Shown here: positions 33,267 through 64,000 of the stretch, piece by piece
How the letters are laid out: each line of letters starts with the position of its first letter
Position numbering within the stretch: the stretch's first letter is position 1
Source of the DNA: Verrucomicrobiaceae bacterium
GTDB taxonomy: Bacteria > Verrucomicrobiota > Verrucomicrobiia > Verrucomicrobiales > Verrucomicrobiaceae
Assembly: GCA_016795375.1 (NCBI GenBank)
Contig: JAEUHJ010000204.1
Coordinates: 1 to 64,000 of the forward strand
Length of the DNA: 64,000 nucleotides
Reading direction: 5' to 3'
The notes under the pieces: model-generated
Told to the model about the DNA's origin: nothing
Database searches by the model: none
What the model saw: the letters and a program-made list of their open reading frames with translations, nothing else
Translations under genes and position numbers: made by a program

Positions 33267-33445
33267 GTGGGTCTGGGGTGAGGGCCGCGACAGTAGTGCC
33301 CGCCCCCCCTGTTTCAAACGCTTTTTTGCCCGCGTCAGCCGTGCTGCCTTGCCCGCCGACGGTCAAATTGACAGCCTCTTTACAATAAAAGCTCGCCACC
33401 GCCGTGATGCTCGCCGCATCATTGCTCCACATCCCGTCAACGGCC

Positions 33446-46547: not shown

Positions 46548-46577
46548 TTGACGCTGGACGGACGACCTCGCTATTCT
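46548..46577 (+). promoter_or_regulatory. Candidate sigma-70-like promoter for the giant gene
   Basis: TTGACG (46548-46553), an 18-base spacer, and TATTCT (46572-46577). Transcription would start near 46584 and give a leader of about 210 bases before the ATG at 46793. It is a sequence match only, with spacing one longer than ideal. Confidence 0.4.
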
Positions 46578-46742: not shown

Positions 46743-46792
46743 CCCTCACTGCCGCCCCCTTTTGATTCCAGCTCCCGCTGCTCTTTAACACG

Positions 46793-49700
46793 ATGAAAAC
46801 ACTCCGCAGATACCGCCTCTTGCTCGGATGGTTCATGACCTTCCTGGTGTTCAGCCTGCAGGTTGCCACGCCGTTGCGTGCGGCGACCGTGTTGTGGAAT
46901 CCGTTTGGATCGCCTGTCAGTTCAGGAGATTGGGACACGAGCACGGCGAACTGGGGAGCCGGAGGTTCGTCACTCTGGGTCAACGCCAACAACGACATCG
47001 CCAAATTCGGGGACGCGGCCAACGGCCCGCCTTCCTCGGTATTCATCACCGCGCCTGTATCCGCCGGAGGGCTTTTTCTGGAGGCGCAAAGTTCAAGCGC
47101 GATGGATTTTTCATTGATCGCGAGTGGGGTGAATCCGGCGGACAACACGTTGAATTTTGCGGGTGGTACTCCAACGGTTCATTTCAAAGGGAGTTCAGCA
47201 CTGGGTTCGGACCATAGAGCAAGCATCAATGCGAAGCTGACGGGAACCCAGGGCCTGATCGTGGAATTTGAGGACACCGCCGGCACGCCAGGGAGCGGCT
47301 ATGGCGTTTTGAAACTCGGGCAGGCGAATTTCAATTACGCCAGCACCTTGAGCGGGGGAATCACAGTCAAGAACAAGGCAGGTCTGGCGGTGGCTGTTTC
47401 CCCCTCGGATCTGGTCGGCGGAAATCATCCCTTGGGGACGAATACCATCACCCTGGAGGGAGGATCGAAGTTCGAAATCAGTGGGGACAAGACGTCCAAT
47501 GGATTGTCCGGAAGGGTGTTCGCCACAAATGGCACCGGCGACACCAGTCGTGTGGATTTCACCGGTATGGCGAGCAGCCTGCGCACAGACAACCTGCTCA
47601 ACAACCTGAACATCAACGCCTCCAACACGGCGGTGCAATGGCAGGGCAAGGTGGAAATCGGGACGGCGGGTGCCTACACATTCTTTGCCAGTTCGGACGA
47701 TGGCAGCAGGATTTTCATCGACGGGCAACTTGTGGTCAACAATGACGGTGGCAAAGGCAACACGGATCTTTCCAGCGCGCCCATCTTTCTGTCGTCGGGG
47801 TTGCATGACATCCGGGTGGACTATGTGCAGGGCGGAGGCGGGGCGAACATCAATCTGGGCTATGCGGGGCCGGACACTGACGGCAGCAACGGGCAGGTTC
47901 GAACGGTGATTCCGTTCAGCAAGCTTTACCAGGCGGACGTGAACGGGCTGGCCGGGGTGAGCACCGCGTTGCAGCTCGGGAACGGGCTGAATGTGACCGG
48001 GAATGCCTTGGTGGACCTGCGAAACGCCAGCTTCAGCTCCGCCCAGTTGGGACGCCTGCAAATGAGCAATGACGCGACGCTGACCGTGAAATCCACTGAC
48101 TTGACCGGCAATCAGGTCGTGGGAGACGGGGCCGGCTTTGGCAAGACCCTTCGGTTTGGCGGAACCACCGGTGATCCGACAATTTTCGGCACGCCGTCGT
48201 CCTCGGGGACGCACACGGTGACTTTTGCCTCGGACGTGAATGTTGCCTTTGACGGGGTCGTCACTGACGAGGGGCGCACGATGACCATCGAGAAGACGGG
48301 GGCTGGTTGGCTGTCTTTCAACCAGACTGGCAGCGCCAATACTCTCGGCTCCGCCAGCAACATTCTGATGACCGGCAGCTCCACGGCACAAACCGCCACG
48401 TTCGGCAGTTATGACAGCGGCTTCTATCGCAGCACGCTGACCACGGGAAGCACCGCAGGATTGTCAGTCGGGATGACGGTCAGTGGCAGCGGCATTCCTG
48501 CTGGAGCGGTGATCGTCGAGATCGTGGATGGCACGACTTTCAAAATCACCGGCAATGCCTCCGCGCTCGTGCCGAGCACCAACCTGGCGTTCTCCAAAAC
48601 ACCCACGCTGGTGCTCACCGGCGCACCGGGGGGCAACAACCCGATCGGTTCCGCGGGTGTGGTGCTGGCAGGGGGCAATCTGGTGCTCGACTCGAAAGGT
48701 GCGACCGCCGCAGGTGTCGGGCCGGTGTTCAACAACCTGATCACCGTCAATCAAAACGCGGTGATCCAGTCCGTGGCGAATGCGTCCACCCTGACCTTGG
48801 GAGGGAACATCAGCATCGCCGGGAACAAAACCCTCGTGCTGGACGCGATCGCCGGTGGGCGTCCGGCCACTGATCCTGGCGCGAATCTGATTGTCTCCGG
48901 AGGCATCACTGGAGACAACACCACGACGCTGGTGATCCGCTCCACACAGAAAAATGCGGGTACGACGATCAATGCGGCGGCCGCGCTGGCCAACGGAGTG
49001 GCACAGCAGACGGGATTCGCGGCACAGAGCGGCGTGGTGACGCTGAGAGGGGATAACTCCGCGTTCAGCGGCATGTTGAGTTTTGAGACTGGATCGAATC
49101 TGCGGGTGGAAGGGGTCAGCGCGCTGTCCGGAAAAACCTTCACGATGGCCGGAGGGACGTTGCAGCTCCTGGATGATGCCGATGGCACGGGGGGCACGCA
49201 AAACCTGGCTTTCAACCATTCCATCACGGTGACTGGGAACGCCGCGTTGACGGTCGGGCGTACTGCCACCACACAGGCTCCCTACTTCCTTCAGGCGTCG
49301 AACAAGAGGGCGCAGATCAGCAGCCTCTCGATCGGCCGGCAGACTCTGAGCGTTTCCAACAACAATGATTATGGTCTGCAGGTGACCGGTGCCACCACGC
49401 TCAATGGAACCCCGACCTTCACGGTTGGCACCGGTACCGCCTCCAACGTGGTGCAGGGGCTGCATCTGGCCGGGCAGGTGACGGGAGCGGCCAGCATTCT
49501 GAAAAACGGAGGAGGGACGCTGGTTCTCGACAATGCCGCCAATTCCTTCGGCGGGGCGGTGAACTTCTCCGCTTTCGGTTCCACCAATATTTTGACCGTC
49601 GAAAGCGTGAACAATCTCGTCACCGGGCAGCGCCTGCAACCTAGCGCGGGAATCAGTGCCGGAACCAGCGTCACGGCCGTCAATGTGCAGAATTTCGCCG

Positions 49701-52700
49701 GCAGCGCCGCCTCGGGCGCCACGGTGATCACCGTGGCCGCGGCAGGCGCGTTTGCCGTCGGAATGCCGGTGAGTGGCAACGGAGTATCCGCAGGCACGAC
49801 GATCGCCGCCTTCAATGACAACGTCACGAACACCACGACGGGGGACACTTTCTTCAACCCCAACATTCTTTCAAATGTACAGGGCGGCACGAGTGACTTC
49901 CGGGTGGGGATGGCTGTCAGCGGCACCGGCATCCCGGCGGGTACGGTGGTGGTGGAGATCGTGGATGGCACGACCCTGCGGCTGAGCCAGAACATCACGC
50001 AGGACAATCCCACACTCGTGCGCCGTCAAGTGACCCTCAGCCAGGCGACCACGTCGAGTGATCCCACGCTGGTGCGCTCGCAACTGACGCTGAACCAGAA
50101 TGTGGCCAGCCCGGGAACGCAGACGGTGGACGCAAACTCGATGGTGAACGTGTCCGGCGGCGTGCTGGCTTTCACCAGCGACGGAGCCTTGGGGGCTGCG
50201 ACCAACGAAATCCTGGTCAACACAAATTCCACCACGACAGGATTGCGGGCGGACGGCACGTTCAACATCCCCAACACCCGCGCCATCATTTTCAACCAGA
50301 CGAACAATTCGCTGGAGGTGACCGCTGGAAACACGGTGACCATGGATGGGGCGTTCACATTCTCGAGCGCGAACAACAATCTGCAAAAGAACAACCGGGG
50401 AACGCTGGTGCTCACCCAGCCTCAGAGCACCTGGAACGGCAATCTCACCATCGGGCAGGGCGTGGTGCGCATCAACGCCGCCGCCGCCTTGGGAAATGCC
50501 GGATCGTTCAATCTGGGCACCAACGTCGCCACGGCGGCCACCCTGGTCGCCAATGTGGCTGCGGCGCTGGAGCTCTCCGGTGGCATCACCCTCTCCGAGG
50601 CGCTGGTGTTCACACCGGGCAACAACAACACCTCCAACGGCATCAGCGGCGGCGGTGCTTTGCGGAGTGTCTCGGGCGGCAATGTCTGGAACGGCACCAT
50701 CGCCATGTCCGGTGCCAGCGGTACGGACAATCAGATGCGCGCGGCGACCATCGGTGTTGATGCAGGCTCGATGCTGACGATCAATGGAGCGATGACAGCG
50801 CGCATCGGCACCGGGGGCAGCGGTCGTGGCGCCTGGTGGGGCCTGGTGGGGGCGGGTGATGGCATCGTCACAAGCACCATGACTTACAATGGCGACTTGT
50901 CTTTCGGAGCCTACTCGCTGGCGAAGGCGGGCACGGGAACCTGGGCGTTGACTGCGGCCAATGCCTTCAACGGGCAGAACGTGTATGTGAACCAGGGGAC
51001 CCTGGCCCTCAATGGGACAGGCACGCTGGGAGTTCCCGGCGTCAATGGAGGAACCGGCACGGTGTTTGTCACTTCTGGCGGTGCATTGACGTTGGACAGC
51101 ACCGGCACCAACACGAGCAACCGCCTCAGCGCACGTGTGCTGACCGTGTATGGAGGCTTGGTGAACATCCTGGGCAATGCTTCCGCAACCACCAGCGAGA
51201 CCACCGGTGTCCTGACATTGAATTCAGGACACTCGGTGTTCACGCTCACCCCTGGCACGGGCCAGCAGGCGAACCTCACCACCGGGGCGGTGACGCGCAA
51301 CTCAGGCAGCACCGTGCTTTTCCGAGGCAATGGCCTGGGAACTGCGAATGCGGAACGGGCCAACATCCAGGCCACGGGCGCGGGTTTTGTGTTTACCGGG
51401 CAGAACGGCGCTGTTGGCGCGAAAAACAAGGGTATCCTGCCGTATGCGATCATTGACTCCTCGTCCTCGGGCCTGGGGACTTCCTTTGCCACCGCTGATT
51501 CGGTGACGGGCGCCTTGCGCGCCCTCGACTCCACTGAGTTTGAGACGAGCATGACGAACAACCTCGGCAACGCGGCGGTGCCGCTGAATGTCTCCCTCAG
51601 CAGCACGCAAGGCGTGGCCAACCCGCTGACGGGCAGCACCATGACCGTCAATTCGCTCACTCTTGGCAGTGGCGGTGGCATTTCCATCACTTCCGCCGAG
51701 AGCCTCATTCTGGACAGGGGCGGTGTTCTTGCCTTCAGCGGCAACACGGGCATCAGTGGCGGGCGGCTTTCCACCTCCAGCAACCGCCAGTTCATTTTTC
51801 ACGCGCTTGGAGACCTCACCGTGTCCTCGGCTATGCACGGCTCCTCGGGCGGTCTGGCAAAGTCTGGCACCGGGGTGATGACGCTGTCCAGCCAGCAGTT
51901 CTACAACGGGCTGACGTCGGTCAATCAGGGCACGCTCAAGCTGGCCGGAGGAACCAACACTTTGTTCTTCAACAATGATTTTGCCTTGCAGGGTGGCTCG
52001 CTGGATCTCAACGGGACCATCCAGGTGCTCAACGTGCTGCGCACAGACACTGCGGTGGCCCAGAACGCCAATCTCGTGCCAGGAGTGGGCGGGAGTGTGA
52101 TCAACAGCTCCGGTGCCCAGGCCACCTTGGGACTTGTCAATGCGGGCGGCAGTTTCTCAGGCACACTCAACGGCAACTTGGCGTTGGTGCGTTCCACCAA
52201 TGCAGGGAGTTTCAGCGATTGGAACATCTACTCGGCCAACGCATACACTGGTGCCACCATCCTCAACGGCGGACGCACCCAGTTGCTCGGCAATGCGACG
52301 CTTGGCAGCACGTCATCCATCGAAATCAGCCAGGCCACGCTGCTGATCTCAAACAACAATGCCACCAGCTTCCTTGACCAGCAGGTGGACAACCGGGTCA
52401 ACGACACAGCCCCCATCCTGATGCGCGGCGGCATGCTGCAATACCGCGCCCGCAATGGATTCGAGGCGACGGAGGCATTTGGCGCGCTGACCCTTGCGGA
52501 GGGCAACAGCGTGATCGACGTGGCCGAGCCGGGCTCGGGTATCAACAGCTCCACAGCCACCTTCACCGCCCTGGCCCGTCAGGCGGGTTCCCATGCCACC
52601 TTGCGCTTTTTCAACGTGGACGGCGCGCAAGGCAGCCGGGCGCGGGTGTTCACCTCCAGCCTCAATGGAGTGGCCACCACCAACGTCGGGGATGGCCTGG

Positions 52701-55700
52701 TCAATCATATCATCGGCGGTTGGGCAGTGTTTGAGCGTGAGTTTGCCAGCTACACTCCGGGAACCGGGGTGGGTGCGCTGAACGGGGCGGGTTATGCCGG
52801 CTATTCCCCCAACGACATCAACACAGGCACCGCCACGGACAACATCCGACTGACTTATCCCGCCATTTCATCCACCGGAACGGTGGGGACAAACTTGCTC
52901 ACGATTGCCGACACCTCCGCCCTGAACGTGGGGGATGCTGTGCTCGGAAGCGGCATCCCGGCGGGCGCGCAAGTGGCCTCGATCATTGACGGCACCCAGT
53001 TCACTCTCAACACTCCTCTGGGAGGGGCCAATCCGACGCTGACCCTGCCGCAACGGGTGTCGCTCACAGCAGACCGCACCATCAACAGCCTGGCGCTGGT
53101 GGTCTCCGGGGACAGCACCCTGGACCTCGGCGGACACACGCTAAATCTGGCCAGCGGCGGCCTCATCGCCTCCCAGGGTTTCAGCACCACCAATGCCCAG
53201 GTCACCGTGGTCAACAGCTCGACCACCAGCAATATCATCGAGCTTGCCAGCGTCCCCCAGAACTTTGTCATCGGCTCCACTGTGCTCGGGCGCACGGTCA
53301 CCGCGGTCAATGGCCTGATGGTGACGCTTGATGGCAACGCGAACACCACCAGCAGCACGCCGACCGGGCGTGACTATGTCAGTGCTCTGTACATGCCGAT
53401 CCAGATCCAGAACGGCAACCTGACCGCCGGCGGCACGCCAAACACGGCCGCTGATCTTTATCTGCACGCCATCGGCTATGTGAACGGAAACGTAAATGTT
53501 CAAAATCGTGATGTGCTGGTCGCTTCCAACATCGTGAACAACGGCACGGGAGCGTTGACGCTGGTGATCAACGGCACGGAAGGACGCGGCAGTTTTGCCG
53601 GCATCAGCGACTTCCGCACCAATGAGCTGGTGCTCAGCGGCAACAACACCTACACCGGCGGCACCTTCGTGAACGCAGGCTTTGTGGTGCTGAATTCCGC
53701 CGTCGGGACCGCTTTGGGAGCCGGTGATGTCACCATCACGGGTGGAGCCAGCACCAACGGCAGCACGTTCCAGGAGCGCACCACCACCGTGGTTTTCGGG
53801 CGGTCGAACCAGATCGCCAGCACGGCCACGGTGTCAATGCTCGGCGGCTCCACGCTTGAACTCAACGGTTTCAACCAGACCCTCGGCGGCCTGGTGTTCA
53901 GCAACACGGGTGGCAGCACGCCGACGCTGATGGCCGGCACCGGCGTGCTGACGCTGAATGGTGACATCACGGCCACGTCTTCCAACCTGGGAGCCAACAC
54001 GGCATCCACCATCACCACGGGTTCGGTTTATTCGCGCCTCGTCACCGGCAGCAATACAATCACCCTGGGCTCGACGGCCGGTCTGACGGTGGGGACTGTG
54101 GTGAGCGGCAGCGGCATTGCCGGCGGCACCACCATCGCTGCCATCAACAACGCCACCACCGTCACGCTGTCATCAAACGCGACGGCGACTGGAAACAGCC
54201 TGCTGACCTTCGGTGGCCTGGGTTCCATCAACCTGGGAGGCTCGAACCGTACCTTCGACGTGTCTGCGGTGACGGCCAATGGGGTCAGCCTGGCGCCGTT
54301 GCTGCCGTCGATGAACATCACCGGCACCATGACGGGGGCCGCCGGGGTCATCAAGACGGGTAACGGCCTCTTGCAGCTCAGTGGAGCCAGCACATTCAGC
54401 GGAGGCGTTGATCTGCAGGCCGGGGGGATATTGGTCTCCGCCAGCAGCACATTCAACAATGGTACTCCCGGCGTGGTGTCCGCAGGACCGCTGGGTACGG
54501 GCGCTGTGACGCTGGCCGCCGGCACCCGTCTTCTTTCCAATGGAAACTTCATCATCGGCAACAACGTGACCGCTGCCGGGAATTTCAACTTTGACAGCAC
54601 GGCGGCCGCGGGCACCAACCTCACTCTCAGCGGTACGGTCACTCTGCCCGGCTCTCTCATCATTGATGTCAACAATCCGGGCATGACGGCCGCTCTGGGT
54701 ACTATCAGCCGGGCGGGCGGGCCGGGAAGCATCAACATCACGAAAACCGGCCTGGGCACCCTGGCGCTTGGCGGGATGACGGCTGGAAACACCGTCAATC
54801 TGACGCTCAGTGGCGGCGGCCTTTCACTTCTGCATGACGGGGATGGTACTGGATCGCGTCAGGTCGTCAATTCGGGGGTCACCCTCAATGCCTCAGGTCC
54901 GGTGAACCTGACGGTGGGGCGCCTTGGCGGCACTTATGCTCCGCTGTTCACTTCCGCCTCAAACAAGACCGTGCAACTGGCGGCCTTCACACTGAACGGG
55001 CCGCTCACCGTCACCAACAACCACGGTCATGGCCTTGAGATCACAGGCACGGCAACCCTGGGCAGCGGGCAGATCATCAATGTCGCGAACGCGAGTGACT
55101 CCAACCGGGTTGCGGGACTCACATTTTCCGGCGCGGTTGCCGGAGCCTCAGGCATCATCAAAACCGGGCCTGGGACGCTGGCTCTGACAGGCACGAACAG
55201 CTTCACCGGCCTGGTGGATGTGCAGGGTGGGGTGATCGCGGTGAACACCGATGCAGCGCTGGGCAATGCCGCCAACCAGGTGGCTTTGAACATCAATGCC
55301 GCCACCGGCGCGGGTTTGCGGGCCACCGGAACCTTTGCGACGAGTCGCGTGATCCAGCTCAATCGCGCCAGCAATGCGATCGAGGTGACAAGTGGCAACA
55401 TACTGACCCTGAACAGCGCCTTCATCCTCGGCACCGTCAGCAACGCCCTGCGCAAGAACGACAACGGCACGCTGGTGCTTGCAGCTGCGAACAGCACCTG
55501 GACTGGAGGACTCACCATCGGCGCGGGCGCGGTACGGATCACCCACAACAATGCGCTGGGAACCACGGGTGGCAGCACCGTGGTGAGCGGGACGGGGGCG
55601 GCGTTGCAACTCGGGGGCGTCACCATCGCAGAGCCGTTGACGTTGAACGGAACTGGCATCAACGGGGAAGGGGCCTTGCAGGCGTTCTCCGGCATCAGTA

Positions 55701-58700
55701 CCGTCAATGGAACCGTGACCTTGGGATCTGCGGCGACCATTGGAGCGAATACGGGAGCGACCCTCAATCTGACCGGGGCGCTCAGCAGCGCCCAGGCGCT
55801 CACTTTCGTGGGGGCTGGCAGCATCAACAAAACCACCACGGGTTTCGGTGCGGTGAGTTCCATCACCAAGCAGGGCGGCGGCACTTTCACACTCGACGTG
55901 ACCAGCGGTTCGTTTGGAGGCAGCCTGGTTGTCAATGAAGGCACGTTCACGATGAACTCCGGTGTCACGATTGGCGGCACGGGTACGATCACCATTCAGG
56001 GGCCCTCAGGAGTGCTGAACCTCCTGGGAGGACTGGATCATATGACTGGAGCCAGGGCGCTGACCTTGATTGGAGGTACATTCACTGTGGCGGGCGGGTC
56101 GGGTTCCACGGAGACGCTTGGGGCACTGACCACGGCACGCGGCGCCACCAATGTGTTCAACTTCAACCCTGGTGGCACCAGCACGCTGACTTTTGACCGT
56201 TGGAACAACAATGGCGACTCAAGCACCAGCTTCGTTGGAACATCTCTTGGCTCTGCCACCAGCCGCATCCTCTTCACCAATGCCCCCGGAGCAGTGAGCA
56301 CCGCCGGCATGATCAACAATGTGCTCCAGAGGAGCACCATCACCGTTGGCGGTGCCACCCATTTCGCTTCCTACAATCATAATGGCTCGACGGCCAACAC
56401 CAACGGCATCCAGGCTTTCACGAATTATAATGTCACCAACAACATCGACACGGCGTCATCGACCCACACACTGAACATCACCAGCACGCCGGTCTTCACG
56501 GGAACCACGAACCGGACTCTCAATGCGATCAGGCTCGACAAGACAGGTGGAGGCATCAACATCGGCAATGGCATCTCCCAGCAGGGGGCCACGCTGACCC
56601 TCACCGCTGGTGCGATTCTCAATGCCGTCGGCAACAACAGCCTCGACAGCGCCCTGCGCATTCATTTCAGCCCCCAGGCCCATGTCGCGGTGGCAGCGGG
56701 GACGATCCTCACCAGCAACAGCCTGCTGACCGGCACCGGCGGGTTTGTCAAAGACCTCGGCGGCACACTGGTCATCAACGCGCCGGACGATCGGGCTGGC
56801 ATCGCCAACATCAGCGGCCAGACATTGACTGGAAACTTTGTCATCAACGCCGGAACGGTGAAACTGGGCGGTGGCAACAACACCTTGACCCCCAATCAGT
56901 TCCTGATCATCGCCCCTGGCGCCACGCTCGACTTGAACGGCACGTCCCAGTTTGCGTTTGGTACACGCGGGGATGGCGCGGCACTGCAAGGCAACGCGGG
57001 CACCATCACCAACAGCAACGCCGCGGCCGCTGCGCTCATTCTGGGCGCTGACAACGGCGGCTTTAACTGGGGAGGAGTCATCAAGCAGGAATCTGGAGCG
57101 GGGGCGATGAGCTTTCTCAAGAGCAGCCCGCAGACCTATGTGTTGCTGAATGAAAGCACTTACAGCGGGGACACCATTTTCGCGGGAGGGACAAACTACC
57201 TGGCTGATGGCGGCAGGTTGACAAACACGGCATCCATCGGAGTCCACTACGCCGTGCTGCGTCTGGATGACAACTTCAACTTTGCCCTGACCAACCGCGT
57301 GAACACAGGCGCGGACATCACTTTGCGCGGCGGATCGCTGGTTTATGTGGGGCGCGCGCAGACGGAATCAGCACAGTCTGTGGGGGACGTCATCCTGGCG
57401 GAAGGCTACAACATGATCCAGTCCGCCAATGGTGGCACCGGCATCAATTCAGCCACGCTGACACTCTCATCCCTGTCGCGCTCGCCCGGATCGGCGGCGA
57501 CGGTGCGTTTTCCGGACAACAGCCTCGGCGTGGTCGGCAATGTCGGACGTATCCTGATCTCCAACTTGAACGGGGTGGACACCACCACTGGAGTGGTGGG
57601 GGCTGGATTGACTCGCAACCTCATCGGCCCGTGGGCGGTGGTTGACCGTGAATGGGCCAGCTACATCCCTGATCTTGGCGTCGGGCGCCTGAATCAGACG
57701 GGCTTTGCTGGATACTCCACCAACACACTCAATGGAACCCCGCTGGCCACCGACAACATCCGTGCCACGGGCAGTGTGGGGGCTTTGTCCGCCAACACGA
57801 CAGTCAATACCTTCGCCATGGTCAATCCGGGATCCGCGCAGACCACGGTCGATCTAGGCGGCTTCCAATTGACGCTTCAGGGCGGGGGGCTGCTGCTGGC
57901 GCACAACGGAGACAACCGCAACATCACGATCACCAATGGCACGATCACCAGCGGAACGCTGAATGCCGCCAGCGACCTCTATGTGCATGCGCTGCCCTAT
58001 GGGGGCACCAATCGCACCGCGGTCATCGGCGCTGCCATTGAGAACAATGGCAGCGGCGCGGTGCGCCTGGTCTATTCCGGCAGTGACGGCGCGGCGAATG
58101 TGACCCTCAACGGCACCAATACCTACACCGGAGGCACGGTCGTCAATGGTGGCGTCCTGGTCATTGGCTCCACGGGTTCGATCGCTGGCGGAGGCATCAC
58201 TATCAGCGGGGGGGCGCAGTCAGGCAGCGGCATCCTTGCGCAGCAGGCGGGCGGCGTGATCGCCTCCAGCAACGTGGTGACCATCAATGGCAGCGGACTT
58301 CTGGTTCTGGCAGGTGAGCAGACGTTGCAGGGACTTGTTTTCAATGGCAACGGCGGCGGCACGGCGGCACCCACGGCCAGTTCCGGCGAGGGGTTGTTGA
58401 CGATTGGTTCGGGCGGCATTGTTTCCAATCCGTTCAATCCCGCCGCCGCCCCCCTGGTTGTGGGACGCATCGACCTCGGTGCGACAGCGAACACAGTCAC
58501 GGTCAACACCTATGACTTCAACAGCTTCACCAATTTCGCGCCGACCACGGCCGGTTTGGTACTCGGCGGCCTGCTTGGCTCGTCAGGAGGCTTCACCAAG
58601 AACGGCAACGGGGTTCTGCAAATCAACCAGTCCACTTTCACCGGCGGCCTGAACGTCGCCGCCGGCGGCATCCAATCTGGCGCGATCAACAGCGGGTCTC

Positions 58701-61700
58701 GTTTCTCCACGCTCACCTTGCAATCGGGCACCCGCCTCAATCTCAACGGGCAGCACACCAACTGGGGGGCGTTGGAGGGGGCCGGCATGGTGTTCAACAG
58801 CGTGGCGAACACGCCGACGCTGACGGTGGGCTTCAACAATGCCTCCACCACCTTCTCCGGACAGGTGAATCGTTTCAACGACGCCACGCCGGCGTCGCTC
58901 CATGTGACCAAAACTGGCGATGGCATCCTTACCATCACAGGTGTCCAGAGTGCCACGAACGGCACTTCCGGCATTCTTTCTGTCGCCGGAGGCGGCGTCA
59001 CCTACAGCGGCGGCGGACGGGCGCTGCTGGCCAATCACACCATCTTGGATGGCGGCACGCTCCTTCTCGACAACACCGGTACGGCGACCAATAACCGCCT
59101 GTCCTCGCCGCTGACAGCCCTGCCAGGCTCCACACTCAACATCAGCGGCGGCCTGCTCACGATCCTGCCGAACACCAGTGCGAGCATCACCGAGACCATC
59201 ACCGCGCTCACCGTTGGCGCCGGGGCTGGCGAGATGCTGCTGGACGCTGACCCGGCCACGGGCATCACGCTGACCATGGCGACCCTCAATGGAATCCAGT
59301 CAGGCGGCACCCTTTGGATTCGTGGTGATTTCAATGCCGCTGGAGCCAACAGCGTCAACGGTTTCTCCCGTGTGCATGTCACTACCACGTTCAATACCGT
59401 TGGCAGCCAGGGCGGTGGGGCGAACGGCACCACGACGATGACGATCCGTCCCGACATGATTGGTTCTGCGGTTGATGGCTCCGGTCTGGCCTTTATCACA
59501 CGTGACTCGGTGACAGGTTTGCTGCGTCCGCTGGCTGCCAACGAAGTCTCCACCTCCCTCGTCAACAACTCGATCACCAACATCTCCCTCGGGGGCAATT
59601 CGAAGATCGCGTTCAGCCAGAACGTCAACAGCCTGATTCTCAACAGCGGCGGCGGCATCAGCAATGCCAATGTCGCGGCCTATGGCAAGTTCACCTCCTC
59701 CGCCGGCATCCTGACCGAGTATGTCCGCACAGGTGGTGTGATCGCCTTTGAAGGCAATGCCGGCCTCGATCTGCCGGCCTTCAACACCTACAGCGGCTTC
59801 TTTGCGTTTCATACGATTGGCGGAGCAACCACCCTCGCCATCAACGGTCATGTAGGTAATGCCAATGGCGGGGGGCTGTGGAAGTCCGGGGCAGGTACGC
59901 TGCAGCTCAACGGCCGCGCGTTTTACACCGGGCAGACCAGCGTCAATGAAGGCACATTGGTGCTCAACGGAGGGGACAACACCATCGTCGTGACCCCGAC
60001 CGCCAATGTGGGTTCCTTCCAAAACCTGCTCATGAACGGGGGCGTCCTCGAGCTCAACGGATTCAATCAGATGGTGGGCACCTTGTTCACCACCAATCCG
60101 CTGGCCGTGGGCGGCACTATCATCAATTCGTCGGCGACTGCGGTGACGCTGCGCGCCAACACTGGCAGCAACACCTTCGCAGGAGTGCTGGCGGGCAACT
60201 TGAGCTACGAGCAGTCCGGCGGCGGCACGCTGGTGTTCAGCAATCAAAGCACCTTCACTGGCGGCACGACCGTGCGCGGCGGCAGCCTGGTGCTGCGTGA
60301 CAACGGCGCGTTCACCGCCACGAGCGGCGTCTCTGTGCACTACGCGACACTCGACTGGGACAACACCGGCCTCAATCCTCTCGGCGGGGACAATCCGGTG
60401 CGTCTGGCGGCGAGCGTGCCGCTCACCTTGCAGGGTGGCAATTTTGTCATTCGCGGCGGCGGTTCGGCTGACACTGCGGTGACATTGGACACCGTCGTTA
60501 TCTCGCGTGGTTACAGCACGGTGAACCTTGTGCCCACGGTCAACGCGGGCAGCTCCGTTCAACTCACCATTGGCAATCTGCTTCGCGGCGCCTCGGAGCA
60601 TGGCGTGTTGAATTTCATCGCTTCTGGCGGCGTGGGCATGGGAGGGACTGGGAACAACAACAATGCCCGTGTCCTGCTTTCAGCGGTCAACGGTTCCGGG
60701 TTCTCTGCCAGTCAGTTGGTAAACGGCCTGATAGGCGGCTGGGCCGTGGTGCACGGCAACAGTTTTGCCACTTACCTGGACGGGGGGGGGGTGGGCGAGC
60801 TCGGCGCCACTGTGGGGGGGAACGCGTTTGCCGGGGGGAATGTCTTCCGCCCCTATGACGGCACGGACATCAGTTCCGGAAGCACCGAGACATCCTGGAA
60901 CATCAGCGACAGCTCCAATCGCACGCTTACGCTCTCCAAGGCCGTCAACTCCCTGCGCCTGGGCAACGTCTCCGCCACGCAGACCCTCACGCTGGGCAGC
61001 GGCTCAACCCCCACGACGCTCACCCTGGGGGTCGGTTTGCTGACCAACACCGGGCAGGCCACCATCATCACCGCCGCCAATGCCGGCTCGGCGCTCACCG
61101 CATCTTCAGGAGAGCTGGTGATGTTCGTCAATCAGGGGACGACCACCCTCAACACAAAAATCACGGGTGGCATCAGCCTCGTCAAGAGCGGTGGTGGCAC
61201 TCTCGCCTTGAATCCTGGACAGAACGCGGGTGTTTCCAATGACTACACTGGCGGCACCTTTGTCACGGCCGGGACGCTTAATTTGAGCAGCGCCGCAAAC
61301 ACCATCGCGGTGCCGGGAGACCTCGTGATCGACAACGCGACCGTGGCGTTTGCCAACGCGAACAAGTTCAACGCCACCACCAGCCAGATCGCCGCCGCCA
61401 GCAACGTGACGCTCAACGGCGGGGCCACGCTGAGCTTCTTCAGCTACTCCGGGGCGACGACCACCACGCTGGGCAGCCTGACCTTCAACAACGACGGTGG
61501 CACGACGCAGCCCCGTGTGCTGTTCAACACCCCTGGGGCGTTGCACACCCTGGTGCTGTCCGCCGCCAATGCCATCACCGTCGTCAACAACAACAACGGC
61601 ACAACGCCCATCATCGCCGCGGCCAGCACCGCGACCAGCTCTGCGTTGCAGTTCAGTCATGCCGCCCCGGTCATCAATGTTTCCGGCTCCTCTCCCACCG

Positions 61701-64000
61701 GATTCATCATCCAGGCTCCTATCGTCACCGGCGGAGGTGCCATCACAAAGACGGGTAATGGTTCGCTGATATTGAGCGGGGCGAGCACTTTCAACAATGG
61801 ATTCAATCTCAACGAGGGATCCCTCATCGTAGGCACCGGCACCACGGCGACCGCTGCGGGGGGGACCACCATCGCGAACGGCGCGCTTGGCGTCGGTGCC
61901 TTGAACATCGGTCAGGGGACGACCCTGATGGCATCAGGGTACACTGTGATCAGTTCCACCACGACGGGAAGTTCGACGGCGGTGACGATGGCCAGCCCGA
62001 ACGGACGCCTGCTCACCGTCGGCCAGCCCGTCAACGGCACCTTCATTCCGGGCGGGGCCTTCGTCGCCTCCGGCATCACGGACGCGGGCTTCACCCTCCC
62101 GGCGAACGCCAGCGGCACAGGTACCAACAACCTGAACTACACCACCTGGCTGGCAAATAACATCAATGTGAATGGTGATTTCACCTTCGGCGGCACCAAT
62201 TTTTCCCACAGCCTTTTCCTGACCGGCACGGTGAACCTCGGCAGCGGGGCCATGCGCACCATCACGGTGGACAGCCCCTATGTGACCTCCTACCTGCAAG
62301 GTGCCATCAGCGGCAGTGGTGGCGGTTTGGGCAAATCTGGCCTTGGTGTCCTGCAAATCTCCAACACCGGCAACAACTATGCGGGAGCCACCACCATCAA
62401 CAACGGTGTGTTGCGCCTTGGGGCGGCCGGGGTCATTCCCGACGGCTCCGCGCTCACCGTCGCGCAAGGTGGCGTGCTGGATCTCGCAGGACGCAATGAG
62501 ACCGTGGGTTCCCTGGCCGGCGCGGGTCTTGTGACGAATTCCAGCGGCGCCACTTCCACCTTCACAGTCGGCGGGGACAACAGCAGCACCGTCTTTTCCG
62601 GCGTGCTCACCGCTGCCACGGTCTCTCGCCTGAACCTGGTCAAGAACGGCAGCGGCACGCTGACCTTGAGCGGTGTGAGCAACTACACCGGCACCACCAC
62701 CATCAACGGCGGCGTCATCAGCATCAGCTCGCTGGGCAACGGCGGCACTGCAGGGGGCATCGGAGCCGCCTCCAGTTCTGCTGCCAACCTGGTCATCAAT
62801 GGAGGCACGCTGCGCTACACAGGTGTGACTGCCTCGACCAACCGTTCCCTGACGATCGGCAGCAGCGGGGCCACGATCGATTCATCAGGCACCGGCGCGT
62901 TGAGTTTCAGCGCCACCTCCCTCGCTTACTCAGGCACTTCAGCGCGCACGATCACCTTCACCGGCAACTCGGCCCCCGGCTTTGTGAACACCTTCACACC
63001 CGCCATCGCGAACGCCACGGGAGCGACCAGCGTGGTCAAGAGCGGCACCGGCACCTGGGCGCTGGGTGGTGTCAACACCTACACCGGAACCACCAGCGTC
63101 AATGCTGGCACCCTGATGCTCACCGCCGGTTCTCTTGGCAACACCGCCATCAGTGTCGCAACTGGAGCCACCCTCAGTCCTTTGGCGGCCACCTACAATG
63201 CCGGCACCGCCACCGCTGGTTCCGCCGGAGCCACCCTGACCCTGGCTGCAGGATCCACCTTGAACCTGTCCAACAACGCGGTTGGCACCTTCAACCTCCA
63301 GCAACAGACCACGTTTGCCGGGACAGCAATGACCATCGGTGCTGCCAGTGGTGCGGCGGTGAACATGTTCTTCGACATCGGCGGCGCCAACAATTTGGAC
63401 ATCGACCGCATCATCGTCACCAAGCCGGTTGTTCTGAACGCCAGCGGGGTTGAGATCACCGTCAATCCGCTTTCCACGATCACCCGCATCGTCACGGCCG
63501 GGGCTCCAGGGTCTCCGCAGATGTACAATCTGATCGCAGGCTCGACCTTCACAGGCTCGGCGTTCAGCCTCAGCAGCAACGGCCTTCTCGTCGGCTCCCA
63601 GGACCTCACGGGTAACGTCACCAATTTTTCGACGACCATTTCCGGGATTTCCAGCACCGCCGCCCTGAATGTCGGCATGCAGGTTACCGGCGTGGGCATT
63701 CCCGTCGGCGCCACCATCGCCTCCATCGTCGATGCGAACACCGTGACGATCTCGTCAGCCGCCACCAGCACGACTTTCGCCAACGAGTTGAACTTTGCCA
63801 ACGCGTACAAGCTCACGCTCAACACCACGGGCGGCCCCCAGTTCCTGCGCCTGGGTGTGGAGACGGTGTCGTCCAGCACGCGCTACTGGACAGGCGGGTT
63901 GAGCGCAACTTGGGACACGCCCAACAACTGGAACACGCTTGCCACGGGGCTGGGATCGACCGGTGTGCCCGGGGTGGTGGACAGCGTTTTTATGACGGCT
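46793..64000 (+). CDS. Giant autotransporter-associated beta-strand-repeat surface protein (3' end beyond window)
   Basis: One frame runs from the ATG at 46793 to the last base, 5736 codons, with no stop seen in the stretches I translated. It starts with a long signal peptide (about 1-31, ending LRA-A) and a TVLWNP ... GDWDTSTANW segment, the usual N-terminal entry of autotransporter-associated beta-strand proteins. A PA14-like domain is at about 270-363. The rest is a repetitive beta-helix-type sequence rich in Gly, Thr, Asn and Ser, with hallmark phrases such as LSGNNTYTGGT, LNGTNTYTGGT, LNGFNQTLGG and KSGTGVMTLS (PATR, Pfam PF12951). Near the right edge RYWTGG ... ATWDTPNNWN repeats the N-terminal motif. 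Cysteines are essentially absent. A C-terminal beta-barrel or sorting signal must lie outside. Likely a surface adhesin. Confidence 0.88.
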   Translation, partial: MKTLRRYRLLLGWFMTFLVFSLQVATPLRAATVLWNPFGSPVSSGDWDTSTANWGAGGSSLWVNANNDIAKFGDAANGPPSSVFITAPVSAGGLFLEAQSSSAMDFSLIASGVNPADNTLNFAGGTPTVHFKGSSALGSDHRASINAKLTGTQGLIVEFEDTAGTPGSGYGVLKLGQANFNYASTLSGGITVKNKAGLAVAVSPSDLVGGNHPLGTNTITLEGGSKFEISGDKTSNGLSGRVFATNGTGDTSRVDFTGMASSLRTDNLLNNLNINASNTAVQWQGKVEIGTAGAYTFFASSDDGSRIFIDGQLVVNNDGGKGNTDLSSAPIFLSSGLHDIRVDYVQGGGGANINLGYAGPDTDGSNGQVRTVIPFSKLYQADVNGLAGVSTALQLGNGLNVTGNALVDLRNASFSSAQLGRLQMSNDATLTVKSTDLTGNQVVGDGAGFGKTLRFGGTTGDPTIFGTPSSSGTHTVTFASDVNVAFDGVVTDEGRTMTIEKTGAGWLSFNQTGSANTLGSASNILMTGSSTAQTATFGSYDSGFYRSTLTTGSTAGLSVGMTVSGSGIPAGAVIVEIVDGTTFKITGNASALVPSTNLAFSKTPTLVLTGAPGGNNPIGSAGVVLAGGNLVLDSKGATAAGVGPVFNNLITVNQNAVIQSVANASTLTLGGNISIAGNKTLVLDAIAGGRPATDPGANLIVSGGITGDNTTTLVIRSTQKNAGTTINAAAALANGVAQQTGFAAQSGVVTLRGDNSAFSGMLSFETGSNLRVEGVSALSGKTFTMAGGTLQLLDDADGTGGTQNLAFNHSITVTGNAALTVGRTATTQAPYFLQASNKRAQISSLSIGRQTLSVSNNNDYGLQVTGATTLNGTPTFTVGTGTASNVVQGLHLAGQVTGAASILKNGGGTLVLDNAANSFGGAVNFSAFGSTNILTVESVNNLVTGQRLQPSAGISAGTSVTAVNVQNFAGSAASGATVITVAAAGAFAVGMPVSGNGVSAGTTIAAFNDNVTNTTTGDTFFNPNILSNVQGGTSDFRVGMAVSGTGIPAGTVVVEIVDGTTLRLSQNITQDNPTLVRRQVTLSQATTSSDPTLVRSQLTLNQNVASPGTQTVDANSMVNVSGGVLAFTSDGALGAATNEILVNTNSTTTGLRADGTFNIPNTRAIIFNQTNNSLEVTAGNTVTMDGAFTFSSANNNLQKNNRGTLVLTQPQSTWNGNLTIGQGVVRINAAAALGNAGSFNLGTNVATAATLVANVAAALELSGGITLSEALVFTPGNNNTSNGISGGGALRSVSGGNVWNGTIAMSGASGTDNQMRAATIGVDAGSMLTINGAMTARIGTGGSGRGAWWGLVGAGDGIVTSTMTYNGDLSFGAYSLAKAGTGTWALTAANAFNGQNVYVNQGTLALNGTGTLGVPGVNGGTGTVFVTSGGALTLDSTGTNTSNRLSARVLTVYGGLVNILGNASATTSETTGVLTLNSGHSVFTLTPGTGQQANLTTGAVTRNSGSTVLFRGNGLGTANAERANIQATGAGFVFTGQNGAVGAKNKGILPYAIIDSSSSGLGTSFATADSVTGALRALDSTEFETSMTNNLGNAAVPLNVSLSSTQGVANPLTGSTMTVNSLTLGSGGGISITSAESLILDRGGVLAFSGNTGISGGRLSTSSNRQFIFHALGDLTVSSAMHGSSGGLAKSGTGVMTLSSQQFYNGLTSVNQGTLKLAGGTNTLFFNNDFALQGGSLDLNGTIQVLNVLRTDTAVAQNANLVPGVGGSVINSSGAQATLGLVNAGGSFSGTLNGNLALVRSTNAGSFSDWNIYSANAYTGATILNGGRTQLLGNATLGSTSSIEISQATLLISNNNATSFLDQQVDNRVNDTAPILMRGGMLQYRARNGFEATEAFGALTLAEGNSVIDVAEPGSGINSSTATFTALARQAGSHATLRFFNVDGAQGSRARVFTSSLNGVATTNVGDGLVNHIIGGWAVFEREFASYTPGTGVGALNGAGYAGYSPNDINTGTATDNIRLTYPAISSTGTVGTNLLTIADTSALNVGDAVLGSGIPAGAQVASIIDGTQFTLNTPLGGANPTLTLPQRVSLTADRTINSLALVVSGDSTLDLGGHTLNLASGGLIASQGFSTTNAQVTVVNSSTTSNIIELASVPQNFVIGSTVLGRTVTAVNGLMVTLDGNANTTSSTPTGRDYVSALYMPIQIQNGNLTAGGTPNTAADLYLHAIGYVNGNVNVQNRDVLVASNIVNNGTGALTLVINGTEGRGSFAGISDFRTNELVLSGNNTYTGGTFVNAGFVVLNSAVGTALGAGDVTITGGASTNGSTFQERTTTVVFGRSNQIASTATVSMLGGSTLELNGFNQTLGGLVFSNTGGSTPTLMAGTGVLTLNGDITATSSNLGANTASTITTGSVYSRLVTGSNTITLGSTAGLTVGTVVSGSGIAGGTTIAAINNATTVTLSSNATATGNSLLTFGGLGSINLGGSNRTFDVSAVTANGVSLAPLLPSMNITGTMTGAAGVIKTGNGLLQLSGASTFSGGVDLQAGGILVSASSTFNNGTPGVVSAGPLGTGAVTLAAGTRLLSNGNFIIGNNVTAAGNFNFDSTAAAGTNLTLSGTVTLPGSLIIDVNNPGMTAALGTISRAGGPGSINITKTGLGTLALGGMTAGNTVNLTLSGGGLSLLHDGDGTGSRQVVNSGVTLNASGPVNLTVGRLGGTYAPLFTSASNKTVQLAAFTLNGPLTVTNNHGHGLEITGTATLGSGQIINVANASDSNRVAGLTFSGAVAGASGIIKTGPGTLALTGTNSFTGLVDVQGGVIAVNTDAALGNAANQVALNINAATGAGLRATGTFATSRVIQLNRASNAIEVTSGNILTLNSAFILGTVSNALRKNDNGTLVLAAANSTWTGGLTIGAGAVRITHNNALGTTGGSTVVSGTGAALQLGGVTIAEPLTLNGTGINGEGALQAFSGISTVNGTVTLGSAATIGANTGATLNLTGALSSAQALTFVGAGSINKTTTGFGAVSSITKQGGGTFTLDVTSGSFGGSLVVNEGTFTMNSGVTIGGTGTITIQGPSGVLNLLGGLDHMTGARALTLIGGTFTVAGGSGSTETLGALTTARGATNVFNFNPGGTSTLTFDRWNNNGDSSTSFVGTSLGSATSRILFTNAPGAVSTAGMINNVLQRSTITVGGATHFASYNHNGSTANTNGIQAFTNYNVTNNIDTASSTHTLNITSTPVFTGTTNRTLNAIRLDKTGGGINIGNGISQQGATLTLTAGAILNAVGNNSLDSALRIHFSPQAHVAVAAGTILTSNSLLTGTGGFVKDLGGTLVINAPDDRAGIANISGQTLTGNFVINAGTVKLGGGNNTLTPNQFLIIAPGATLDLNGTSQFAFGTRGDGAALQGNAGTITNSNAAAAALILGADNGGFNWGGVIKQESGAGAMSFLKSSPQTYVLLNESTYSGDTIFAGGTNYLADGGRLTNTASIGVHYAVLRLDDNFNFALTNRVNTGADITLRGGSLVYVGRAQTESAQSVGDVILAEGYNMIQSANGGTGINSATLTLSSLSRSPGSAATVRFPDNSLGVVGNVGRILISNLNGVDTTTGVVGAGLTRNLIGPWAVVDREWASYIPDLGVGRLNQTGFAGYSTNTLNGTPLATDNIRATGSVGALSANTTVNTFAMVNPGSAQTTVDLGGFQLTLQGGGLLLAHNGDNRNITITNGTITSGTLNAASDLYVHALPYGGTNRTAVIGAAIENNGSGAVRLVYSGSDGAANVTLNGTNTYTGGTVVNGGVLVIGSTGSIAGGGITISGGAQSGSGILAQQAGGVIASSNVVTINGSGLLVLAGEQTLQGLVFNGNGGGTAAPTASSGEGLLTIGSGGIVSNPFNPAAAPLVVGRIDLGATANTVTVNTYDFNSFTNFAPTTAGLVLGGLLGSSGGFTKNGNGVLQINQSTFTGGLNVAAGGIQSGAINSGSRFSTLTLQSGTRLNLNGQHTNWGALEGAGMVFNSVANTPTLTVGFNNASTTFSGQVNRFNDATPASLHVTKTGDGILTITGVQSATNGTSGILSVAGGGVTYSGGGRALLANHTILDGGTLLLDNTGTATNNRLSSPLTALPGSTLNISGGLLTILPNTSASITETITALTVGAGAGEMLLDADPATGITLTMATLNGIQSGGTLWIRGDFNAAGANSVNGFSRVHVTTTFNTVGSQGGGANGTTTMTIRPDMIGSAVDGSGLAFITRDSVTGLLRPLAANEVSTSLVNNSITNISLGGNSKIAFSQNVNSLILNSGGGISNANVAAYGKFTSSAGILTEYVRTGGVIAFEGNAGLDLPAFNTYSGFFAFHTIGGATTLAINGHVGNANGGGLWKSGAGTLQLNGRAFYTGQTSVNEGTLVLNGGDNTIVVTPTANVGSFQNLLMNGGVLELNGFNQMVGTLFTTNPLAVGGTIINSSATAVTLRANTGSNTFAGVLAGNLSYEQSGGGTLVFSNQSTFTGGTTVRGGSLVLRDNGAFTATSGVSVHYATLDWDNTGLNPLGGDNPVRLAASVPLTLQGGNFVIRGGGSADTAVTLDTVVISRGYSTVNLVPTVNAGSSVQLTIGNLLRGASEHGVLNFIASGGVGMGGTGNNNNARVLLSAVNGSGFSASQLVNGLIGGWAVVHGNSFATYLDGGGVGELGATVGGNAFAGGNVFRPYDGTDISSGSTETSWNISDSSNRTLTLSKAVNSLRLGNVSATQTLTLGSGSTPTTLTLGVGLLTNTGQATIITAANAGSALTASSGELVMFVNQGTTTLNTKITGGISLVKSGGGTLALNPGQNAGVSNDYTGGTFVTAGTLNLSSAANTIAVPGDLVIDNATVAFANANKFNATTSQIAAASNVTLNGGATLSFFSYSGATTTTLGSLTFNNDGGTTQPRVLFNTPGALHTLVLSAANAITVVNNNNGTTPIIAAASTATSSALQFSHAAPVINVSGSSPTGFIIQAPIVTGGGAITKTGNGSLILSGASTFNNGFNLNEGSLIVGTGTTATAAGGTTIANGALGVGALNIGQGTTLMASGYTVISSTTTGSSTAVTMASPNGRLLTVGQPVNGTFIPGGAFVASGITDAGFTLPANASGTGTNNLNYTTWLANNINVNGDFTFGGTNFSHSLFLTGTVNLGSGAMRTITVDSPYVTSYLQGAISGSGGGLGKSGLGVLQISNTGNNYAGATTINNGVLRLGAAGVIPDGSALTVAQGGVLDLAGRNETVGSLAGAGLVTNSSGATSTFTVGGDNSSTVFSGVLTAATVSRLNLVKNGSGTLTLSGVSNYTGTTTINGGVISISSLGNGGTAGGIGAASSSAANLVINGGTLRYTGVTASTNRSLTIGSSGATIDSSGTGALSFSATSLAYSGTSARTITFTGNSAPGFVNTFTPAIANATGATSVVKSGTGTWALGGVNTYTGTTSVNAGTLMLTAGSLGNTAISVATGATLSPLAATYNAGTATAGSAGATLTLAAGSTLNLSNNAVGTFNLQQQTTFAGTAMTIGAASGAAVNMFFDIGGANNLDIDRIIVTKPVVLNASGVEITVNPLSTITRIVTAGAPGSPQMYNLIAGSTFTGSAFSLSSNGLLVGSQDLTGNVTNFSTTISGISSTAALNVGMQVTGVGIPVGATIASIVDANTVTISSAATSTTFANELNFANAYKLTLNTTGGPQFLRLGVETVSSSTRYWTGGLSATWDTPNNWNTLATGLGSTGVPGVVDSVFMTA
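47600..47881 (+). other. PA14-like domain within the giant protein
   Basis: Residues about 270-363 carry a PA14 pattern: VQWQGKVEIGTAGAYTFFASSDDGSRIFIDGQLVVNND, then LSSGLHDIRVDY and GANINLGYAGPD. PA14 domains bind carbohydrates in many adhesins and glycosidases, so this is the likely ligand-binding head near the N-terminus. Confidence 0.8.
48431..48565 (+). repeat. GIPAG-type cassette, copy 1
   Basis: In-frame segment reading LSVGMTVSGSGIPAG, then VEIVDGTTFKITGNAS. It interrupts a beta-strand repeat. Its 20 bases at 48518-48537 are identical to 49955-49974 in copy 3. Confidence 0.65.
49718..49819 (+). repeat. GIPAG-type cassette, copy 2 (partial)
   Basis: Reads ATVITVAAAGAFAVGMPVSGNGVSAGTTIAAF, directly before copy 3, with a more degenerate form just upstream (about 49600-49690, SAGISAGTSVTAV). 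Confidence 0.5.
49886..50005 (+). repeat. GIPAG-type cassette, copy 3
   Basis: Reads RVGMAVSGTGIPAGTVVVEI, then VDGTTLRLSQN. It shares 20 identical bases with copy 1, which argues for recent DNA-level copying rather than only selection on protein. Confidence 0.6.
52421..52853 (+). repeat. Large module, copy 1 (IGGWAV module)
   Basis: About 145 codons: RGGMLQYRA, then AEGNSVIDVAEPGSGINSSTATF, HIIGGWAVFEREFASY, GVGALNGAGYAGYSPN and TDNIRLT. The same order of motifs recurs from 57323 and, more diverged, from 60428. Confidence 0.7.
52868..53047 (+). repeat. GIPAG-type cassette, copy 4
   Basis: Reads LNVGDAVLGSGIPAGAQVAS, then IIDGTQFTLNTPLGG. It sits directly after large-module copy 1, at a place where module copy 2 has no such segment, so it looks inserted there. 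A degenerate relative follows at about 53228-53346. Confidence 0.65.
54041..54193 (+). repeat. GIPAG-type cassette, copy 5
   Basis: Reads LTVGTVVSGSGIAGGTTIAA, then INNATTVTLSSNATATG. It splits a beta-strand repeat whose halves can be read on both sides. Confidence 0.6.
57323..57782 (+). repeat. Large module, copy 2 (IGPWAV module)
   Basis: About 150 codons: RGGSLVYVGRA, AEGYNMIQSANGGTGINSATLTL, LIGPWAVVDREWASY, GVGRLNQTGFAGYSTN, ATDNIRATG. It is clearly homologous to 52421-52853. Confidence 0.7.
60428..60860 (+). repeat. Large module, copy 3 with poly-G tract
   Basis: About 144 codons: QGGNFVIRGGG, SRGYSTVNLV, LIGGWAVVHGNSFATYL, then the G10 tract (60782-60791) coding GGGVGELGATVGGNAFAGG. 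More diverged than copies 1 and 2, but with the same motif order. Confidence 0.65.
61967..62116 (+). repeat. GIPAG-type cassette, copy 6 (divergent)
   Basis: Reads LLTVGQPVNGTFIPGGAFVA, then GFTLPANASG, between two beta-strand repeat units. Confidence 0.5.
63620..63769 (+). repeat. GIPAG-type cassette, copy 7
   Basis: Reads LNVGMQVTGVGIPVGATIAS, then IVDANTVTISSAATS, shortly before the second WDTPNNWN motif at the right edge. Confidence 0.6.

Follow-up and report, generated by a model that had tools for sequence, protein, structure and literature searches.

A giant gene of 10,434 codons, whose product is well supported as a surface fibre, starts in the analysed window (64,000 nucleotides) and is followed downstream by a cassette of four Verru_Chthon genes, which are well supported as minor pseudopilins. 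The window corresponds to C166:1-64000 in a draft genome of 4.7 Mb, where contig C166 is 92,453 bases long and the window takes up its first 64 kb. We propose that the giant protein is sorted by its PEP-CTERM tail and crosses the outer membrane by a pseudopilus of the type II secretion system (T2SS) type, with the cassette as an alternative tip; the evidence leaves this reading about evenly poised. It is the gene neighbourhood alone that points to an action of the cassette on the giant protein. The features are collected in Table 1.

Table 1. Features of the giant locus, with positions on the contig (numbering identical to the window up to 64,000)
Feature	Position	Strand	Basis
Promoter-like element TTGACG-N18-TATTCT	46548..46577	+	conserved upstream of giant orthologues
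Possible short leader ORF, 39 codons	46646..46765, between promoter and giant	+	like-placed ORFs in orthologues
Giant PEP-CTERM/PATR protein gene	46793..64000 in window (first 5,736 of 10,434 codons); ends 78097	+	ORF reading, orthologues, codon-position test
Sec-type signal peptide	46793..46882, about residues 1-30	+	MKTLRRYRLLLGWFMTFLVFSLQVATPLRA; kept in orthologues; assigned by eye
First W motif WDTSTANW	46931..46954, residue 47	+	motif search of giant
PA14 domain	47564..47884, residues 258-364	+	PF07691, E 8.7e-14
'VGM' module copy	48413..48619, residues 541-609	+	local profile; without Pfam family
PATR beta-strand repeat stretch	49493..64000 in window	+	PF12951/TIGR02601; local profile count
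'VGM' module copy	49847..50053, residues 1019-1087	+	local profile
'VGM' module copy	54035..54238, residues 2415-2482	+	local profile
'VGM' module copy	63614..63823, residues 5608-5677	+	local profile; more copies beyond window
Second W motif WDTPNNW	63911..63931, residue 5707	+	motif search of giant
Verru_Chthon cassette A, 1,703 aa	78201-83312 (beyond window), same contig		TIGR02600, 1092 bits vs 332
Verru_Chthon cassettes B, C, D	behind A, to 85778, same contig		TIGR02598, TIGR02599, TIGR02596
IMP dehydrogenase (IMPDH)	85837-87294, same contig, behind cassette D		gene order

The giant gene and its protein

The single frame that the earlier note had read from the ATG at 46793 to the end of the window (5,736 codons) was confirmed. 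Once the next stretch of the contig was joined, as that note had proposed, the frame continued without an earlier stop to 78095-78097. The complete protein has 10,434 residues, is larger than first reported, and contains no cysteine (0/10,434 residues). The nearest in-frame stop 5' of the ATG is at 46763, and the start is supported by the orthologues, which have the same MKTLR onset of the signal peptide.

Colinear copies of the giant gene were found in 12 species of the same genus; the named relatives comprise Prosthecobacter and unclassified Verrucomicrobiaceae draft genomes. From stop to stop, the orthologues of seven other species have 10,135-10,778 residues, and two more have 11,644 and 12,111. 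The remaining ones include two of more than 13,100 residues, whose 5' end lies outside the fetched sequence, and one cut by a contig end; in G013, the open frame reported by a PEP-CTERM genome search measures 14,256 aa. Over end-to-end alignments the closest orthologues are 43-68% identical, and four others share 28-34%, where the alignment is possibly helped by the repeat composition. Codon positions 1 and 2 diverged less than position 3 in 12/12 comparisons with the giant, most clearly in the close pairs. For example, the differences from the G011 orthologue at positions 1, 2 and 3 were 0.25, 0.19 and 0.57. Judging from these sequences, the giant is under purifying selection. Because of this selection and the colinear copies in the genus, the frame is not an assembly artefact; the independent orthologues and the codon positions likewise ruled out misassembly, chance and a frameshift.

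Several genomes were seen to contain additional PEP-CTERM open frames, 9,000-14,700 aa long (such as 14,376 aa on contig C83 of G001, 14,657 aa on C102 of G002, and 11,959 aa on C14 of G008), and giants are therefore habitual in this genus. Giant genes of PVC bacteria are already known from a survey of huge proteins (PMC11573180) and, for the PVC superphylum, from the West-Roberts preprint as it is cited in PMC12057145. As far as these sources describe them, those giants share with the present family the prediction as surface proteins and the enrichment in PVC phyla. The present family differs in having a colinear orthologue conserved across a genus; it sets no size record.

At its C-terminus the giant carries the PEP-CTERM tail VPEPGRLMLIILGFFALGWRRRRRWLF, composed of the PEP motif, a hydrophobic helix, and an arginine cluster. 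The tail scored 16.7 bits on TIGR02595 (cut-off 16), and 24.9 bits (E 2.6e-4) in the genome search. Two exosortases were matched in the genome by PF09721 (152.7 and 139.6 bits). The PEP-CTERM/exosortase surface proteins were first found in Verrucomicrobium spinosum (PMC1569441). The giant shares with them the tripartite tail, an apparent signal peptide, and the exosortases in the genome; it differs in its exceptional size (10-14 kaa in the family), a near-fixed number of PATR repeats, the VGM modules, and a neighbouring minor-pseudopilin cassette.

The repeat-built surface protein described in the earlier note was borne out by PF12951/TIGR02601 matches along the chain, and its PA14-like head by a PF07691 match of 52 bits (cut-off 24). 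The signal peptide is also apparent by eye; with about 30 residues it is, contrary to that note, not specially long. The local profile counted about 42 PATR repeats in the giant, and 42-47 in the full-length orthologues. The VGM module has about 68 residues (consensus TVTVxSTxGLxVGxxVSGTGIPAGxTIxSI), and about 22 copies occur in the giant; among the orthologues the copy number varies from 18 to 65, and is highest in the longest proteins. This module had no match to a Pfam family and no convincing NCBIfam match. Its predicted model had a pLDDT of mostly 70-94 over the modules, and the best structural match was the decoration protein of the Arthrobacter phage Bridgette (8eci; Z 10.2, with 29% of 73 aligned residues identical; next match 7.1). 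The sequence profile of the module also recovered the 8eci chain (E 0.0012); its WD40 matches were set aside as sums of very weak short matches. Since the PATR count is near fixed, the VGM copies range so widely, and the VGM model resembles a phage decoration protein, the giant looks like a stable repeat scaffold with a varying number of decoration-like domains. A decoration-like module whose number varies within a fixed repeat scaffold is thereby described. In the second model, the PATR part was poorly predicted, with a pLDDT below 50 at 115-157, and a beta-helix is therefore an assumption for this part.

Windowed self-comparison revealed old internal duplications in the giant, mostly 35-54% identical. 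The earlier note had taken the motifs WDTSTANW and WDTPNNWN as bracketing one designed unit. This did not hold, for a third copy lies at residue 6612, past the window, and the 'both ends' were an effect of the window edge; the W motif also occurs at similar positions in several orthologues. More likely it marks the onset of successive passenger-like blocks, and the copies at residues 47, 5707 and 6612 suggest that there might be three of them.

The Verru_Chthon cassette

The cassette begins 103 bases behind the giant gene and matches all four Verru_Chthon families, in the order A-B-C-D. Besides A (Table 1), the other three members also scored above their curated cut-offs (B 76.8/51.4, C 355.8/256.5, and D 102.5/70 bits). 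These family names come without a function; the analysis links them to the K-I-J-H set of minor pseudopilins as well as to giant PATR genes. The name 'Verru_Chthon' was not mentioned in the literature searched, a coverage that leaves out most subscription papers and preprints. A viral origin of the cassette was also considered and rejected, as no relative was found among the viral contigs searched.

On the curated Gsp models the cassette proteins matched below cut-off: A on GspK with 30.5 of 130 bits, B on GspI with 20.1 of 44.35, and C on GspJ with 23 of 64.85. D had weak matches to GspG/GspH-type pilins. This test has little power in the phylum, because the H-I-J-K proteins of the genome itself also score below cut-off. 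In a profile comparison, D came closest to the GspH that the genome itself encodes and C to its GspJ, mostly through the N-terminal helix, and B fell between J and I. The PDB sequence profiles of B, C and D gave no useful match beyond the N-terminal pilin helix. In the alignments of the class III prepilin signal, Glu5 is kept in B, C and D and absent in A; GspK likewise lacks Glu5, unlike the other minor pseudopilins. Moreover, some distant loci have the gene order D-B-C-A, which corresponds to gspH-I-J-K.

The AlphaFold model of cassette C, built on 53 sequences, had a pLDDT of 87 and a pTM of 0.83, and Foldseek returned a single notable match, the XcpVWX minor pseudopilin complex. Against GspJ-type chains (GspJ/XcpW/EpsJ) the model gave Z scores of 9.1-10.3, and against a Thermus type IV-like minor pilin 10.4; the next unrelated structure had 5.1. 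As far as the model goes, cassette C folds like GspJ. The fold evidence concerns C, and the identities of B and D rest mainly on the N-terminal helix. With this distinction, the equivalence of A, B, C and D to GspK, GspI, GspJ and GspH is well supported.

The genome also has a T2SS operon of its own on contig C180, with the genes F-G-H-I-J-K-(PilN-like)-M in order, a GspD-like secretin on C119, and a second G/K pair on C50. The cassette is therefore an additional, motor-less set of minor pseudopilins. It shares with the T2SS tip GspH-I-J-K (e.g. XcpU-V-W-X) the fold of C, the Glu5 pattern, the weak model matches of A, B and C, and the order D-B-C-A in some relatives. It differs from that tip in that no major pseudopilin, ATPase or secretin adjoins it, in the length of A (1,300-1,800 aa versus about 300 for GspK), and in being a second set in a genome with its own H-I-J-K. 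Adjoining the T2SS operon, an ORF of 897 aa (L018, 9007-11700 of C180) was observed, which has two PATR-like matches and no PEP-CTERM.

Gene neighbourhood and the route of export

The order giant-A-B-C-D-IMPDH was found in 13/13 genomes examined, comprising the own genome and 12 relatives with the downstream part fetched. Among the named GTDB loci with upstream sequence, a PATR/PEP-CTERM ORF lies directly upstream of A in 14/15 loci of class I, the cassette class of the window; the sole exception (L125) has a class-I cassette with no giant upstream. In the wider set of 76 named loci with flanks, a PATR ORF is within 1.5 kb of the cassette in 30 and within the locus in 34; outside the Verrucomicrobiaceae, many cassettes lack a PATR gene at a distance of up to 10 kb. 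By a rough inference from the own genome, where about five PATR genes are spread over 4.7 Mb, a few per cent of random 20-kb stretches would contain one.

The steps of the proposed export may be as follows. The giant would cross the inner membrane by Sec and be retained there by its tail, which an exosortase would cut and re-attach. The giant would then pass the outer membrane and remain at the surface, with the PA14 domain and the VGM modules available for binding. The cassette proteins A-D would cap the housekeeping T2SS pseudopilus as an alternative tip, adapting the T2SS to the giant fibre. To our knowledge, no T2SS exports so long a chain. The T2SS route is plausible by precedent, because CTERM-tagged proteins use a T2SS in Myxococcus (MYXO-CTERM; PMC11980579) and Vibrio (GlyGly-CTERM; PMC3237569). 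The MYXO-CTERM/myxosortase and GlyGly-CTERM/rhombosortase systems likewise bring C-terminally tagged proteins to the surface via the T2SS; their tag and protease are different, and their substrates are of ordinary size.

In a rival explanation, which we consider quite possible though short of an even balance, the giant would be a PEP-CTERM/exosortase surface protein of the ordinary kind, the cassette would serve other substrates as a T2SS tip or as a pilus set, and their adjacency would be inherited synteny with no bearing on function. This is consistent with L125 and many distant loci, where a cassette occurs with no giant, and with the gap between the giant and A. It is also consistent with the other giants and PEP-CTERM proteins of the same genomes that have no adjoining cassette. 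For example, the window's genome has one cassette and at least four further PATR/PEP-CTERM genes, and in G008, with one cassette A match, the PEP-CTERM frames that measure 11,959 and 8,918 aa lie on different contigs from that match. As many PEP-CTERM giants in the genus lack an adjoining cassette, a rule of one cassette per giant was rejected. Against inherited synteny, the adjacency was kept across genomes whose giants are just 28-68% identical and in 14 of the 15 class-I loci, and the same site can hold another PATR giant accompanied by a divergent cassette; both facts also fit a strong synteny of the IMPDH locus. That other giant is found at the IMPDH site of G018 and G019; it has 5.8-6.05 kaa, is related in patches, and has no PEP-CTERM.

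Eight loci of the second cassette class have a long upstream ORF with the other C-terminal ending and, in five of them, a PATR match. Away from these two classes the association of cassette and PATR giant is loose. The cassette-linked PATR giants of L062, L065, L127-L130 and L159 were observed to end in a conserved GxGYF-like stretch and not in a PEP-CTERM. This end is perhaps another sorting or anchoring end. The class-II giant has no PEP-CTERM, which counts against the model that joins PEP-CTERM and cassette.

A third explanation takes the cassette to assemble a fibre resembling a type IV pilus, or the tip of a DNA-uptake pilus, with giant and pilus cooperating in adhesion; it appears improbable. 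The genome does encode an Amuc_1098-type secretin of type IV pili, the fold is common to minor pilins and minor pseudopilins, and the top Z score of cassette C is tied with the Thermus type IV-like pilin; however, GspJ-type structures make up 8/10 of the entries above Z 9 for C, and A matches GspK and is without Glu5 like it. The PATR repeats, named after autotransporter passengers, and the lack of cysteine would suit a type V autotransporter of the classical kind, whose barrel either belongs to the same chain or is provided by a two-partner TpsB. This is extremely improbable, since the complete chain finishes in the PEP-CTERM tail, Pfam scans found no autotransporter barrel in it, and PF03797 is absent from the genome draft. 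The C-terminus, which the earlier note had named as decisive between an autotransporter and another route, thus largely rules out the former.

How chains exceeding 10,000 residues are exported when no autotransporter barrel is present, and how PEP-CTERM proteins pass the outer membrane, are two questions that meet in one conserved gene block, and the extra T2SS tip is a concrete candidate. If this is true, four protein families that so far have only a cassette name would gain a function. As far as checked, the pair of a giant and a motor-less minor-pseudopilin set is an undescribed variant. A broader proposal, possible but tentative, is that Verrucomicrobiota have exchangeable tips: a motor-less GspH-I-J-K-like cassette would retool the housekeeping T2SS to export and deposit giant beta-repeat fibres, and each cassette class would co-evolve with its type of giant.

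The region upstream of the giant gene

The promoter-like element has the form TTGAC[GT]-N18-TATTCT and lies 238-287 bases 5' of the ATG in 10/10 orthologues with fetched start, in which the surrounding intergenic sequence is diverged. Short ORFs placed similarly to the one here occur in the other nine orthologues with fetched start, and their frame relative to the giant varies. Several of the ten begin with MRNxPxDL; the one here and that of G016 begin with MPR. Because the starts are similar in differing frames, a leader peptide or RNA element is possible, and the short ORF may be either of these, or due to chance. Rfam matches and tRNAs were absent from the 64-kb window. Farther upstream, at 33404-40000 (+), is an ORF of 2,198 aa that gave no useful NCBIfam score; it has an apparent signal peptide, and by eye it resembles the bacterial alpha-2-macroglobulin-like proteins.
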